DNA of 35,091 nucleotides, from assembly GCA_009703055.1 (NCBI GenBank), contig WLGW01000013.1, forward strand, positions 1-35,091, written 5' to 3'. The notes beneath the pieces are model-generated. The model was not told where the DNA came from. It ran no database searches and saw only the letters and a program-made list of their open reading frames with translations. Below, piece after piece: positions 5,304 to 28,095 of the stretch (the first letter of the stretch is position 1; every line of letters starts with the position of its first letter). The stretch is from Actinomycetota bacterium (lineage in GTDB: Bacteria > Actinomycetota > Acidimicrobiia > Acidimicrobiales > Ilumatobacteraceae). Both the position numbers and the translations under genes were made by a program.

Positions 5304-5390
5304 TGGTGTCGAAGGGGGGACTTGAACCCCCACGCCCTCACGAGCGCCAGTCCCTTAAACTGGTGCGTCTGCCTATTTCGCCACTTCGAC
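5304..5390 (-). tRNA. tRNA-Leu, anticodon AAG, CCA encoded
   Basis: A full class II cloverleaf reads from 5390 down. The acceptor GTCGAAG pairs perfectly with CTTCGAC. The D stem is GCG/CGC. The anticodon stem CCAGT/ACTGG encloses the loop TTAAGGG. A long variable arm (GCTC/GGGC) marks it as a leucine-type tRNA. The T stem GGGGG/CCCCC encloses TTCAAGT. Discriminator A is at 5307 and CCA is encoded at 5304-5306. Counting from U33 gives anticodon AAG (bases 5354-5356), which reads CUU, and CUC if A34 becomes inosine. G37 fits a CUN decoder. Bacteria normally carry GAG here. The ATG of pyk follows the CCA with no gap. Confidence 0.92.
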
Positions 5391-23545: not shown

Positions 23546-23571
23546 ACCACTCAGTGTATGAATCACCTGGG

Positions 23572-23654
23572 TGCCCGAGGTGGGACTCGAACCCACACGC
23601 CCTTCCGGACAACGGATTTTGAGTCCGTCGCGTCTGCCATTCCGCCACTCGGGC
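23572..23654 (-). tRNA. tRNA-Leu, anticodon CAA
   Basis: A class II cloverleaf from 23654 downward: acceptor GCCCGAG/CTCGGGC, D stem GCG/CGC, anticodon stem ACGGA/TCCGT with loop CTCAAAA giving anticodon CAA (reads UUG), long variable arm, T stem GTGGG/CCCAC with loop TTCGAGT, discriminator A. The bases after the discriminator are CCC, so CCA is not encoded here, unlike in the other tRNA-Leu of this window, and must be added by the CCA enzyme. No clear promoter was identified upstream. Confidence 0.95.
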
Positions 23655-23746: not shown

Positions 23747-24922
23747 ATGCTCGCGTTCACATTCCCCGGCCAAGGCTCCCAGCGACCTGGAATGGGTCGT
23801 CCCTGGGTCGGTCATGACAGCTGGGAATTGGTGGACGAAGCCTCTGACGTGTCGGGCAGGGATGTCGGAGCGCTCCTATTAGATGCAGACGCCGAGGTCC
23901 TGAAAGACACTCGCAATGCACAACTCACGACATTCGTTTCATCTCTCATGGTTCTTGACGCCGTTGAACGACTAGGAATTGAACCCAGCTTCTGTGCCGG
24001 ACACAGCTTGGGCGAATACACGGCGTTAACCGCGACAGGCGCTTTGTCGTTTGAAGATGGTGTGCGACTCGTTGTGGAACGCGCTGATGCCATGCACGAA
24101 GCTGGCCTCGCAAGCCCTGGCACGATGGCTGCAGTACTTGGTCTTGACGATGATCTTGTCGAGGTTGCATGCCGTCGCGCTGATGCGGACGTATGGGTTG
24201 CCAACTTCAATGCACCTGGACAAGTAGTAATTGCCGGCTCCCCTGCAGGAGTTGCATCAGCTGGTGAGCACGCCAAAGAGCTCGGGGCGAAGAAGATCAT
24301 GCCGCTCCAAGTTTCTGGAGCGTTCCACACGCCATTCATGACCGCAGCAAGAGAACGTTTACGCTCTGCAATCGCCTTGGCTTCACCACGAGACGTTGAA
24401 GTACCTGTGATTTCAAACGTTGACGCCATCGCTCACTCTTCAGGTGAAGAATGGTCGTCACTTCTTTCAGCACAGTTGTCAAGCCCTGTTCGTTGGAAGC
24501 ATTGCTTGCTCACCATGCAAGAACTAGGCGTCACAGGTTTTGTCGAACTGGGTCCTGGTGGTGTCCTCACGGGCATGGCAAAGCGAACTGTGGATGACGC
24601 ACGGACGATCACTGTCTCCACCCCCGAAGAACTCGACAAGCTCATCGAATGGGTCAACGCGTCGTCTCCTACGGGTGCTGCACAATTAGAAGGTGAACAC
24701 CTTTTTGCCGTAGAGCGCCTCGTCGTCAGCCCTTCAGCAGGTTTGTTTTCTCCTGAGTCGTCGGTGACTGTGGGCTCGCAGATCAATGTTGGCCACATCA
24801 TTGGTCGCGTTGGCGACAACGACGTGCGCTCCCCTTTTGCAGGAGTGATTCAGAACTTCATCGCTGTTGAAGGCGAGAGAGTGACAACTCACCAGCCCAT
24901 CGCATGGCTGCGCTCGGTATAG
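23747..24922 (+). CDS. fabD: Malonyl-CoA:ACP transacylase with C-terminal biotinyl/lipoyl-like domain
   Basis: A 391-residue protein, about 80 residues longer than ordinary FabD. Residues 1-300 are the acyltransferase that moves malonyl from CoA to ACP: FPGQGSQ (6-12), nucleophile S87 in GHSLGE, R112 in the ERADAM segment, and H194 in SGAFHTPFM. Residues 318-391 are an extra beta-rich domain whose repeats (VGHIIGRVGDNDVRSPFAGVI, then VEGERVTTHQPIAWL) follow the barrel-sandwich pattern of biotinyl/lipoyl carrier domains, but the hairpin that normally carries the modified lysine (AMKM) reads GDNDVR and has none. The start is ATG 23747, without a ribosome binding site. First gene of the FAS II operon. 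Confidence 0.9.
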   Translation: MLAFTFPGQGSQRPGMGRPWVGHDSWELVDEASDVSGRDVGALLLDADAEVLKDTRNAQLTTFVSSLMVLDAVERLGIEPSFCAGHSLGEYTALTATGALSFEDGVRLVVERADAMHEAGLASPGTMAAVLGLDDDLVEVACRRADADVWVANFNAPGQVVIAGSPAGVASAGEHAKELGAKKIMPLQVSGAFHTPFMTAARERLRSAIALASPRDVEVPVISNVDAIAHSSGEEWSSLLSAQLSSPVRWKHCLLTMQELGVTGFVELGPGGVLTGMAKRTVDDARTITVSTPEELDKLIEWVNASSPTGAAQLEGEHLFAVERLVVSPSAGLFSPESSVTVGSQINVGHIIGRVGDNDVRSPFAGVIQNFIAVEGERVTTHQPIAWLRSV

Positions 24923-24936
24923 CGGGAAGAAGAACG

Positions 24937-25887
24937 ATGCCCAAGATTCCTTCCAATGTTCGTGGCGCCCGCTTCACAGGCTGGGGTACAGCCCTTGGCC
25001 ATGAGACCGTCACAAACCATGATCTCGCCAAAACAATTGACACCAGCGATGAATGGGTTCGCGAACGAACCGGAATCCATCGTCGGCATATCGGTGGTTC
25101 AACAGCCGAACTAAGTATCGCCAGCGGTGCAGCAGCGCTTCAGATGGCGGGTATTGACCCGACGTCCATCGACGCTCTTGTTCTTGCAACAACAACGCCT
25201 GACAGAACAGTGCCTGCAACCTCAGCGACTGTTCAGAATGCTCTCGGTTTACGTTGCGGTGCGTTCGACATCAATGCAGCGTGCTCTGGCTTTGTCTACG
25301 GATTAGTCAATGCACATGGTCTTATTGCAATGGGAGCAGAACGCATTCTCCTCATTGGTACTGACACTTTGCGTCGCATCACTGATTGGACAGACCGCAA
25401 CACTGCAATTCTTTTTGCAGATGGTTCCGGCGCCGCAGTGCTTGAAGCAACAAATGGTCATGGTCAACTCTTGGGTTGGGATCTTGATGCCGATGGTTCA
25501 GCCGAAGAGATTTTGTACTCAAATATCGGCGAGACCTTGCACATGGACGGGAAAGAAGTTTTCCGTCGCGCTGTTCGCATCATGGTAGATAGTGCTCAGA
25601 AGTCGATGGCTCATGCTGGTGTCACCGCAGATCAGATCAACGTCATCGTTCCGCATCAAGCCAATATCAGAATCATCTCTGCCGCTTGTGAGCGTCTCGG
25701 CATCTCTATGGATCGAGCATCAGTAGTGATTCACGAAACCGGCAACACCTCGTCTGCATCGATTCCGCTCGCTCTGTTCGGTGATTTCGATCAAACAAAA
25801 CCAAAAGAAGGAGACCTTGTTCTTCTCGTTGGCTTTGGCGCTGGCATGACTGCAGCAAGTGCGATTCTTGAATGGGGTGCACAATGA
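24937..25887 (+). CDS. fabH: Beta-ketoacyl-ACP synthase III
   Basis: A 316-residue KASIII, which starts fatty-acid synthesis by condensing an acyl-CoA with malonyl-ACP. The catalytic triad is C116 (NAACSGF), H240 (VPHQAN) and N270 (ETGNTSSASIP). The substrate (acetyl or branched) cannot be told. I choose ATG 24937, 14 bases after the fabD stop with a GGAAGAAG purine run just upstream; a reading from 24904 would begin inside fabD. The last bases overlap fabG as ATGA. Confidence 0.95.
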   Translation: MPKIPSNVRGARFTGWGTALGHETVTNHDLAKTIDTSDEWVRERTGIHRRHIGGSTAELSIASGAAALQMAGIDPTSIDALVLATTTPDRTVPATSATVQNALGLRCGAFDINAACSGFVYGLVNAHGLIAMGAERILLIGTDTLRRITDWTDRNTAILFADGSGAAVLEATNGHGQLLGWDLDADGSAEEILYSNIGETLHMDGKEVFRRAVRIMVDSAQKSMAHAGVTADQINVIVPHQANIRIISAACERLGISMDRASVVIHETGNTSSASIPLALFGDFDQTKPKEGDLVLLVGFGAGMTAASAILEWGAQ

Positions 25888-26588
25888 GTCGTGTCGTTCT
25901 CATCACTGGTGGCTCACGCGGCATTGGTCTTGCATGTGCTCAACGTTTCGCACAACTAGGAGACAAAGTTGCTGTCACGTACAACTCATCTCCTCCACCG
26001 GCAGAGTTCTTCGGCGTCCAGTGCGATGTCACCGACACGGCACAAGTAGATGCTGCCTTCAAGGCTGTTGAAGAGCACTTCGGCCCCGTTGAGATTTTGG
26101 TATCCAACGCCGGCATTACAAAGGACACTTTGCTGCTACGCATGAGCGAGGCTGACTTCTCCAACGTCGTTGACGCAAACCTCACCGCTGCTTTTCGAGT
26201 CGTGAAGCGAGCGACCCAAGGGATGCTGAAAGCGCGTAAGGGTCGCATCATCTTGATGTCCTCGGTCGTCGGGCTACTCGGCTCCGCAGGGCAAGCCAAT
26301 TACGCGGCCTCAAAGGCAGGCCTCGTCGGTTTTGCACGGTCACTCGCACGAGAGCTTGGATCTCGCAGTATCACTGTCAATGTTGTGGCTCCAGGCCCCG
26401 TTGCCACCGATATGACTGCAGCTCTCGGTGAGGATCGACTGAAGGAATTGACGTCTGCAGTGCCCCTCAACAGAATGGCGACGCCCGAAGAAATCGCAGG
26501 TGTGGTGGCCTTTCTTGCAGGTGACGACGGCGCGTACATCACCGGAGCCGTGATTCCTGTTGATGGCGGATTAGGTATGGGTCACTAG
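25884..26588 (+). CDS. fabG: 3-oxoacyl-ACP reductase
   Basis: A 234-residue short-chain dehydrogenase that reduces 3-ketoacyl-ACP with NADPH. The nucleotide motif is TGGSRGIG (8-15), the NAG motif is in SNAGIT, and the catalytic tetrad is N99, S127, Y140 and K144 in the GQANYAASKAG context typical of FabG. The ATG overlaps the fabH stop (ATGA), showing translational coupling. The longer reading from 25872 has no support. Confidence 0.94.
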   Translation: MSRVVLITGGSRGIGLACAQRFAQLGDKVAVTYNSSPPPAEFFGVQCDVTDTAQVDAAFKAVEEHFGPVEILVSNAGITKDTLLLRMSEADFSNVVDANLTAAFRVVKRATQGMLKARKGRIILMSSVVGLLGSAGQANYAASKAGLVGFARSLARELGSRSITVNVVAPGPVATDMTAALGEDRLKELTSAVPLNRMATPEEIAGVVAFLAGDDGAYITGAVIPVDGGLGMGH

Positions 26589-26654: not shown

Positions 26655-26891
26655 ATGAGCAACGAAAATTTTGATCGCTTTGTGAAGTGTGCAGTGGAGA
26701 CGTTGTCCGTCGACGCATCAAAGGTCACCATGGAAGCAAGTTTTGCTGACGACTTGGACGCCGACTCACTTGACGTCGTTGAACTCGTGATGGCACTTGA
26801 AGAAGAATTCGGCATTGAAGTGCCAGAAGAAGAACTCACTGACGTCACCACCGTTGGTCAGGCCTTTGCCATCATCACCGGCAAGCTCTAA
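26655..26891 (+). CDS. acpP: Acyl carrier protein
   Basis: A 78-residue acidic helical protein. S38 in the DADSLD motif is the attachment site for 4'-phosphopantetheine, and the following [12 protein letters not shown] helix matches the recognition helix of ACPs. It carries growing acyl chains between FabD, FabH, FabG, FabZ and FabF. ATG 26655 has AAGGAG at five bases, the strongest ribosome binding site in this operon, in line with high expression. Confidence 0.97.
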
Positions 26892-26910: not shown

Positions 26911-28095
26911 ATGATTGGCGCAGGACACCGCGTCGCGATTACTGGTCTTGGCGTTGTCGCGCCATGTGGTCACGGCAAAGAGAACTATTGGAAGGGTCTG
27001 TTCGGATCTGGAATCAATGGCACCACGTCACTGATAGTTGATGATTGGGATCCGCTTCCGTATTTCCCCGGACCGAAGGAAGCTCGCCGCGCTGATCGAG
27101 TCGAGCAGTTTGCTTTGGCTGCAGCCGCCGAAGCATTTGAACAAGCTGGAGAGATTGGCGTAGATCCTTCACGCTTTGGCACCATCTTTGCCACCGGCAT
27201 CGGCGGATTGCACACACTCGAGGAACAAATTCAAATCCGTCTCGACAAGGGTGACCGACGCGTCTCCCCTTTCCTTGTTCCCATGATGATGGCCAATGCA
27301 TCAGGTGCGGCCATCTCCATGAAGTACGGCCTCCAAGGCCCGAACGAAACGATCTGTACGGCATGCGCCGCGGGCACTCACGCACTTGGATATGCAGCCC
27401 GTCTGATTGCATGGGGTCGTTGTGACGCCGTGGCATCTGGTGGTTCTGAATGCGCAGCTACAGCAACTTCCCTTGCAGGCTTCGGCAACATGACCGCATT
27501 GTCATCAACTGGCGAGTCAATGCCATTTGATGAACGTCGTAATGGCTTCGTCATGGGAGAAGGCGCAGCCGTGTTTATTCTCGAGCGATACGACTTGGCA
27601 GTCGCTCGTGGCGCAACCATTCTCGGAGAGATTCTTGGCGCTGGCAGCAATGCTGACGCTCACCACATCACTGCACCATCACCTGGCGGCACCGGAGCTA
27701 TCAAGTGCATTCATCTTGCACTCGATGAAGCAGGACTGTCTCCCGCCGATATCGCTCTCGTCAATGCGCATGGCACTTCAACGCCACTGAACGACGCTGC
27801 CGAAGCACAGGCCGTGACAGAGGTGTTCGGAGCAAAGGCTGTTCCAGTCACTAGCGGCAAGGGCGTCACCGGACATGCACTCGGTGCGGCTGGAGCCCTT
27901 GAAGCAGCACAGGTACTTCTCTCCTTCCAACACAAGATCATTCCCCCCACTGCCGGAACAACAGTCCTAGACCCGACAATGAGTATTGACCTTGTCATCG
28001 GCGAAGGACGTGAGTGGACCCCTGGCCCTGCTATCTCCAACAACTTTGGTTTTGGCGGACACAACGGGTCCATCATCATCGCGCCTGCGTCCTAG
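26911..28095 (+). CDS. fabF: Beta-ketoacyl-ACP synthase II
   Basis: A 394-residue KAS II that elongates acyl-ACP with malonyl-ACP. C152 in TACAAG is the nucleophile, H287 in NAHGTSTPLND and H322 in GVTGHALGAAG are the decarboxylation histidines, and K317 precedes the second one. The ATG at 26911 lies 19 bases after the acpP stop; its ribosome binding site is weak. The gene is the last of the plus-strand FAS II operon and its stop overlaps that of the convergent GNAT gene by four bases. Confidence 0.95.
   Translation: MIGAGHRVAITGLGVVAPCGHGKENYWKGLFGSGINGTTSLIVDDWDPLPYFPGPKEARRADRVEQFALAAAAEAFEQAGEIGVDPSRFGTIFATGIGGLHTLEEQIQIRLDKGDRRVSPFLVPMMMANASGAAISMKYGLQGPNETICTACAAGTHALGYAARLIAWGRCDAVASGGSECAATATSLAGFGNMTALSSTGESMPFDERRNGFVMGEGAAVFILERYDLAVARGATILGEILGAGSNADAHHITAPSPGGTGAIKCIHLALDEAGLSPADIALVNAHGTSTPLNDAAEAQAVTEVFGAKAVPVTSGKGVTGHALGAAGALEAAQVLLSFQHKIIPPTAGTTVLDPTMSIDLVIGEGREWTPGPAISNNFGFGGHNGSIIIAPAS

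Follow-up and report, generated by a model that had tools for sequence, protein, structure and literature searches.

What might a malonyl-CoA:ACP transacylase (FabD) do with a C-terminal domain that resembles a cofactor carrier and has no lysine to hold the cofactor? This question is raised by an open reading frame at positions 23747-24922 (+ strand) of the DNA analysed here, a stretch of 35,091 nucleotides, referred to here as the window, from a genome of the Ilumatobacteraceae. The frame has 391 codons and no internal stops, and encodes FabD fused to a barrel domain. The enzymes of type II fatty acid synthesis are usually regarded as free. The FabD domain comprises residues 1-300 (23747..24646, +) and matches TIGR00128 and Pfam Acyl_transf_1 (2e-36); residues 1-284 score 280.2 bits against TIGR00128, above the curated cut-off of 260.9. 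The FabD motifs GQGSQ, GHSLGEY and GAFHTP start at positions 8, 85 and 191, respectively, and Q9, S87, R112 and H194 are invariant across 26 aligned FabD sequences; we take these four residues to be the active site, i.e. the catalytic Ser-His together with Gln and Arg. By sequence, the window FabD is an intact malonyl-CoA:ACP transacylase. Most of the stand-alone FabD chains among the PDB matches have ~300-320 residues and, therefore, the window residues beyond ~310 are extra, in agreement with an initial annotation that had described a complete transacylase followed by an additional domain.

The fusion gene is at the head of an operon with the order fabD-fabH-fabG-acpP-fabF. Its stop is overlapped by fabH (24904..25887, +, with an alternative start at 24937; Pfam ACP_syn_III and ACP_syn_III_C), which is followed on the same strand by fabG (25872..26588, +; Pfam adh_short_C2, 2.3e-61), acpP (26655..26891, +), encoding an acyl carrier protein of 78 residues that as a blast query finds acpP in the operons of loci L117 and L278, and fabF (26911..28095, +), encoding a ketoacyl-ACP synthase (Pfam ketoacyl-synt). 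FabF scores 418 bits against a TIGR03150 cut-off of 493.75 and is, therefore, a divergent member of its family. A FabA/FabZ-like gene lies downstream of the operon on the opposite strand, and a tRNA-Leu (CAA) gene (23570-23654, -) just upstream of fabD, also on the opposite strand; a second tRNA-Leu (AAG) gene is at 5304-5390 of the window.

A full-length AlphaFold2 model, based on an alignment of 58 sequences, has a mean pLDDT of 85.6. The pLDDT is below 50 at residues 308-321, after which strands run from 323 to 390. The linker (residues 301-314; 24647..24688, +) comprises the end of the last FabD helix, which extends to residue 305, and is then disordered. It is followed by the segment EGEHLFA (residues 315-321; 24689..24709, +), in which G316, E317, L319, F320 and A321 are invariant in the 58 sequences, while the E of the motif is present in 135 of 157 rows of the barrel family. 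Because this segment is almost invariant and is unordered in the model, it would suit a contact motif, and we regard it as a candidate for one.

The C-terminal domain (residues 318-391; 24698..24919, +) is predicted by AlphaFold2 to be a barrel-sandwich domain of the BCCP type. When residues 310-391 were predicted alone, the mean pLDDT was 92.2 and six strands were formed. The top Foldseek matches of this model in the PDB are Pyrococcus BCCP (5gua, E 5.9e-5), BesA and E. coli AccB, and VIA-align ranks E. coli AccB first (4hr7_G; Z 12.3, with 67 residues aligned at 0.9 A and 24% identity), with a Z of 11.8 for Arabidopsis BCCP1 (9a87). However, BesA and efflux adaptors also reach a Z of about 11 and, therefore, these families are not separable by fold alone. 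Thus, the prediction gives the carrier-type barrel that the initial annotation had proposed, and not the unrelated fold that it had named as grounds for abandoning the proposal. The two-fold repeat that it had read in the domain fared less well, because the local alignment score of the two halves was equalled in 980 of 5000 shuffles; we do not use this repeat as proof of the barrel.

Searches of the Pfam and NCBIfam libraries with the window's barrel domain gave no match above any curated cut-off. As a single sequence, the barrel scores 20.3 bits (E 5.1e-4) against Pfam Biotin_lipoyl, under the gathering score of 22.1, and the whole protein scores 14.9 bits, likewise under 22.1. By contrast, a profile of 25 barrels encoded by separate genes (described below) matches E. 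coli AccB with an E of 1.8e-7 over profile positions 6-78 of 82. The same profile matches lipoyl E2 chains with similar or better E-values (best 1.8e-12, in three matched stretches), but these matches span a shorter part, about positions 24-81 of 82. Among the 25 separate members, 14 match the BCCP model PRK07051, 10 match the YqeB model TIGR03309 and 19 match Pfam Biotin_lipoyl at an E of up to 0.01, all of these being E-values only, except for one match shown under the cut-off. TIGR03309 is also the best single-sequence NCBIfam match of the window barrel (E 1.1e-5); we rejected an identity as YqeB because the score is 25.1 bits against a cut-off of 220 and the match is confined to model positions 162-212. 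In other words, the significance of the barrel rests on the family profile and the fold, and not on the single sequence, and the length of the profile match together with the fold favours BCCP over YqeB, despite the similar or better E-values of the lipoyl E2 chains. We conclude that the barrel is a relative, and probably a descendant, of a BCCP-type biotinyl domain.

At the site of the biotinyl hairpin, the window barrel has VGDNDVR (residues 355-361; 24809..24829, +), which is four residues shorter, and residues 301-391 contain no lysine at all; the sequence that the initial annotation had read in the hairpin where the biotinylated or lipoylated lysine should be is thus borne out. Neither the (A/S)MKM biotinyl hairpin nor a lipoylated lysine is present in the window barrel. 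In the alignment of the family, the biotin column holds no lysine in any of 157 rows, while all four controls (two BCCP domains and one lipoyl domain from the window's own genome, and the AccB of a relative) have one there. The column holds a gap in 81 rows, i.e. a short hairpin as in the window, G in 49 and other residues in 27; these rows are not 157 independent genomes, since the window occupies two of them and some genomes appear under two locus numbers, and two real YqeB rows (L236, L237) are left out. With the lysine missing from every row, a true biotin or lipoyl carrier is ruled out.

The fusion is conserved in related genomes. A match is present in 55 of the 61 genomes searched, which include the window's own; the fusion is encoded in one frame in 44 (among them G055, in which two pieces of one frame were found), and FabD and barrel matches are separate in seven. 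Among genomes of the same family with a FabD match, FabD and barrel are in one frame in 31 of 33; the two exceptions are a frame change inside FabD (G019) and a fragment of 100 residues (G023). These counts rule out a frameshift or assembly artefact absent from close relatives, the other ground for abandonment that had been named. When named genomes were scanned, 189 relatives turned up, of which 80 were kept; all 80 match across FabD and barrel, although this share is not a frequency because the scan was queried with the fusion itself. Among the named relatives, the nearest (99-75% identity) are MAGs, and most of these bear the title Ilumatobacteraceae, Acidimicrobiaceae, Acidimicrobiales or Actinomycetota; the record titles of a few relatives look mislabelled. 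Over 1653 pairs of the 58 sequences, pN/pS is 0.18 for FabD, 0.41 for the linker (residues 301-316) and 0.29 for the barrel, with synonymous sites near saturation. The barrel is under purifying selection. In a FabD tree of 88 rows, made by a quick method, the fused/separate state changes at least twice, with starred branches forcing one change.

For a carrier barrel that has no cargo site and stays under selection, a binding module is the best reading. As to what it binds, we suggest, with a probability of about 40%, that it is a BCCP-derived, non-biotinylated adaptor that would link a carboxyltransferase and FabD, similarly to plant BADC. The genomic context of the barrel, in particular where it is encoded separately from FabD, bears on this proposal in both directions.

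In the window's class, the Acidimicrobiia, a barrel search matched 120 of 198 genomes at an E of up to 1e-3. The list of matches has a gap, and we took the family to be the matches better than 1e-20; many of those weaker than 1e-6 lie in long frames of the biotin- or lipoyl-carrying kind, of which some were read. Among 396 genomes sampled from the phylum, 64 match the barrel profile (E up to 1e-7), with YqeB behind some of the matches, and 324 have FabD (E up to 1e-30). Many actinobacteria thus have FabD and no detected barrel, which counts against the adaptor. Most of the 80 loci that were read have fabD, a small barrel ORF and then fabH, fabG and fabF on one strand. The distance from the fabD stop to the barrel stop is 250-431 bases, often about 260, so that the two genes nearly touch or overlap. 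A FabD match is present in 90 of 101 chosen loci, as a separate gene in 59 and fused in 31, and among the 80 loci a fabH match is present in 57 of the 59 separate-gene loci and nine of the 10 fused loci; L098 and L113 have no fabH match. The barrel is, in sum, a recurrent part of actinobacterial fab operons.

A carboxyltransferase gene is a further companion in part of the family. In loci whose sequence extends 1.4 kb or more past fabF, and counting genes no further than 1.5 kb from fabF on its own strand, it follows fabF in 27 of 46 separate-gene loci overall and in 24 of 26 from the window's class; the loci are related and the counts, therefore, do not represent independent events. Outside the window's class, three of 20 separate-gene loci have such a gene near fabF, and the other 17 count against the adaptor. 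Among fused loci with room for the gene, it is present in one of 57 (L238), and the window has no carboxyltransferase match by tblastn and none after fabF. The fused form itself, therefore, has no gene-order link to a carboxyltransferase, and this is the weak point of the proposal. Moreover, each of three operon-type carboxyltransferases that were scanned falls short of the cut-off in all NCBIfam models listed; their substrate is thus unproven, which also counts against the adaptor.

Loci without a FabD match number 11 among the 80. Two of these are YqeB (L236, L237), and six of the remaining nine link the barrel to a carboxyltransferase gene (G212, G499, G042, G525, G324 and G490). In G212 (locus L084), a Carboxyl_trans gene (PF01039, E 1.4e-121) directly follows the separate barrel, and in both G212 and G499 the barrel and the carboxyltransferase are together while the fab operon is absent there; in G499 a weak fabG-like match about 2 kb from the pair is the only fab-type gene. 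On another contig of G212 the order is fabD-fabH-fabG-acpP-fabF without a barrel, with FabD cut by the contig end, and G499 has fabD beside fabF and fabG matches, again without a barrel. In G042, G525, G324 and G490, the barrel, fabH, fabF and carboxyltransferase genes are kept and FabD is elsewhere. L229, L231 and L233 are barrel-fabH-fabF-carboxyltransferase clusters without fabD, from genomes whose FabD is elsewhere, adjoining a fabG match. The barrels of G499, G525, G324 and G490 are distant (E about 1e-12 to 1e-14), and this counts against the adaptor, as do the other three of the nine loci (L099, L100 and L228; barrel E about 1e-12 to 1e-16), which have neither fab nor carboxyltransferase matches. 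The genetic partners of the barrel are FabD and FabH, joined in part of the family by the carboxyltransferase. The initial annotation had proposed a mute mimic of a carrier domain that may dock acetyl-CoA carboxylase or ACP and so channel malonyl groups. This proposal is partly supported: what stands of it is a lysine-less barrel whose separate form often has a carboxyltransferase gene in its operon and, in two genomes, adjoins that gene away from the fab operon; the fused loci, at one in 57, do not share this link, and docking and channelling would be further steps. The separate-gene form, and the greater reach of the BCCP match compared with the lipoyl match, are additions to that annotation.

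The loci without fab matches have features of their own. L099:4588-4914 (-) and L100:4510-5007 (+) are small lysine-less barrel ORFs (E about 1e-16) from two other families of the class; both have a Phosphodiest (PF01663) gene nearby and no fab matches, and represent a second context. L228:4873-6435 (-) contains a barrel-like stretch (E 3e-12) near genes for a C39-like peptidase and an O-antigen ligase-like protein, and is not near fab genes.

In the window's own genome, the gene most similar to the operon carboxyltransferase (52% identity) lies on contig C58, where as read it sits between a regulator and a citrate-synthase-like gene. Three proteins of this genome score above the Biotin_lipoyl cut-off with the lysine kept, all of them away from the fusion. 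True biotin carriers are encoded in two frames, biotin carboxylase-BCCP and BCCP-carboxyltransferase. The latter is on contig C26 (L264:1162-2907) and has a biotinyl domain (SMKM) and then a carboxyltransferase domain in one frame, an unexpected order. A carrier barrel tied to a carboxyltransferase, therefore, exists in the same cell.

In the model that we favour, a BCCP-type biotinyl domain would have lost biotinylation and come to serve as a protein-protein adaptor. This false carrier domain would bind the malonyl-CoA-making carboxyltransferase, or another subunit of the carboxylase, and would thereby hold FabD beside the carboxylase, so that either the hand-over of malonyl-CoA to ACP would be local or the carboxylase would be tuned to FabD. 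In the window's lineage, in which the carboxyltransferase gene is outside the operon, the adaptor welded to FabD would be the tightest version of this arrangement. Gene order may, on the other hand, reflect co-regulation only. The statement that a dedicated pseudo-carrier of the Actinomycetota, i.e. a BCCP domain stripped of biotin, bridges the carboxyltransferase producing malonyl-CoA and the FabD using it is one that we put forward tentatively and regard as doubtful.

Four other explanations were weighed against this adaptor model. The barrel could act within fatty acid synthesis only, binding FabH, ACP or another FAS II enzyme and keeping FabD in a loose complex, with the carboxyltransferase as a mere operon companion. 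The presence of fabH in 57 of the 59 separate-gene loci with fabD, the 17 separate-gene loci outside the window's class without a carboxyltransferase gene near fabF, and the order barrel-fabH-fabF without fabD in four genomes all fit this idea, as does the M. tuberculosis FabD, which is said to contact KasA, KasB, FabH and others (PMC2765072, in the part of the text available). But in G212 and G499 the barrel adjoins the carboxyltransferase gene and not fabH, and in L098 and L113 fabH is missing, and we consider a scaffold of this kind rather unlikely. A regulatory role, in which the barrel competes with or caps the true BCCP at the biotin carboxylase or carboxyltransferase and so sets the supply of malonyl-CoA, would require the fusion only for fixing stoichiometry. 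It can draw on the plant BADC proteins, motif-less BCCP homologues described as inhibitors or assembly glue (PMC11926652, in the part available), on the Z of 11.8 between the barrel model and Arabidopsis BCCP1 (9a87) and on the carboxyltransferase linkage in part of the family; however, inhibition needs no FabD fusion, and the carriers found in the window's own genome are parts of longer chains and not a free BCCP of the kind that BADC uses, all of which makes this role improbable.

There is little to recommend a passive add-on that merely stabilises or dimerises FabD. While the presence of FabD in 90 of the 101 classed barrel loci would be expected from it, the barrel is also a separate protein and occurs in nine loci without fabD, a disordered linker lies between the two domains in the model, and the barrel is under purifying selection. 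A different cofactor, or a modification on another residue of the barrel, could be accommodated by the conserved E, R, Q and W positions of the domain, but is very improbable given that the hairpin is shortened in 81 of 157 rows and that the window barrel has no lysine.

The favoured adaptor would have relatives among known systems. The BCCP biotinyl domain (E. coli AccB, 1bdo/4hr7; Pyrococcus BCCP, 2evb/5gua) resembles the barrel in predicted fold, in length and in profile similarity over nearly the whole domain. However, the barrel has no biotinyl lysine, its hairpin being shortened or K being changed to G, has an additional conserved GE..ER segment and an AWLR end, and is fused to FabD or encoded beside it. 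The family model TIGR00128 covers residues 1-284 of the window FabD above its cut-off and leaves the C-terminal barrel outside. The C-terminal region of YqeB (TIGR03309) is also similar to the barrel, but the match is partial and far under the cut-off, and the gene context is different. HlyD/RND adaptors and the N-terminal barrel of NqrA are likewise lysine-less barrels in contexts that differ from that of the window barrel. To our knowledge, the fasII operon of M. tuberculosis contains no barrel gene. In many separate-gene loci, the order fabF-carboxyltransferase resembles that in M. tuberculosis, in which kasB, a gene of the fasII operon, lies upstream of accD6, which encodes a carboxyltransferase (PMC4014462, in the part available). 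Among the matches listed and in the open-licence literature, we found no account of FabD fused to a barrel, and none of a BCCP relative in bacterial fab operons that is without its lysine; the parts are known, while their combination, spread and genetic partners appear to be undescribed.

The closest functional parallel may be the plant BADC (biotin attachment domain-containing) proteins, BCCP homologues without the biotinylation motif that are reported to act as inhibitors or glue of the heteromeric acetyl-CoA carboxylase and serve fatty acid synthesis (PMC11926652, in the part available). The likeness is one of description, and BADC partners BCCP and biotin carboxylase, while the available part of that source makes no mention of a fusion to FabD. 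By being, in different lineages, fused to FabD or linked to a carboxyltransferase gene, the conserved cargo-less BCCP relative described here names two partners, and hints at an unrecognised helper between the making and the use of malonyl-CoA. If the adaptor model is true, bacteria would have, in the barrel, a counterpart of plant BADC that physically joins the carboxylase to a dissociated fatty acid synthase, and through it the route of malonyl-CoA from the carboxylase to FabD could become testable.
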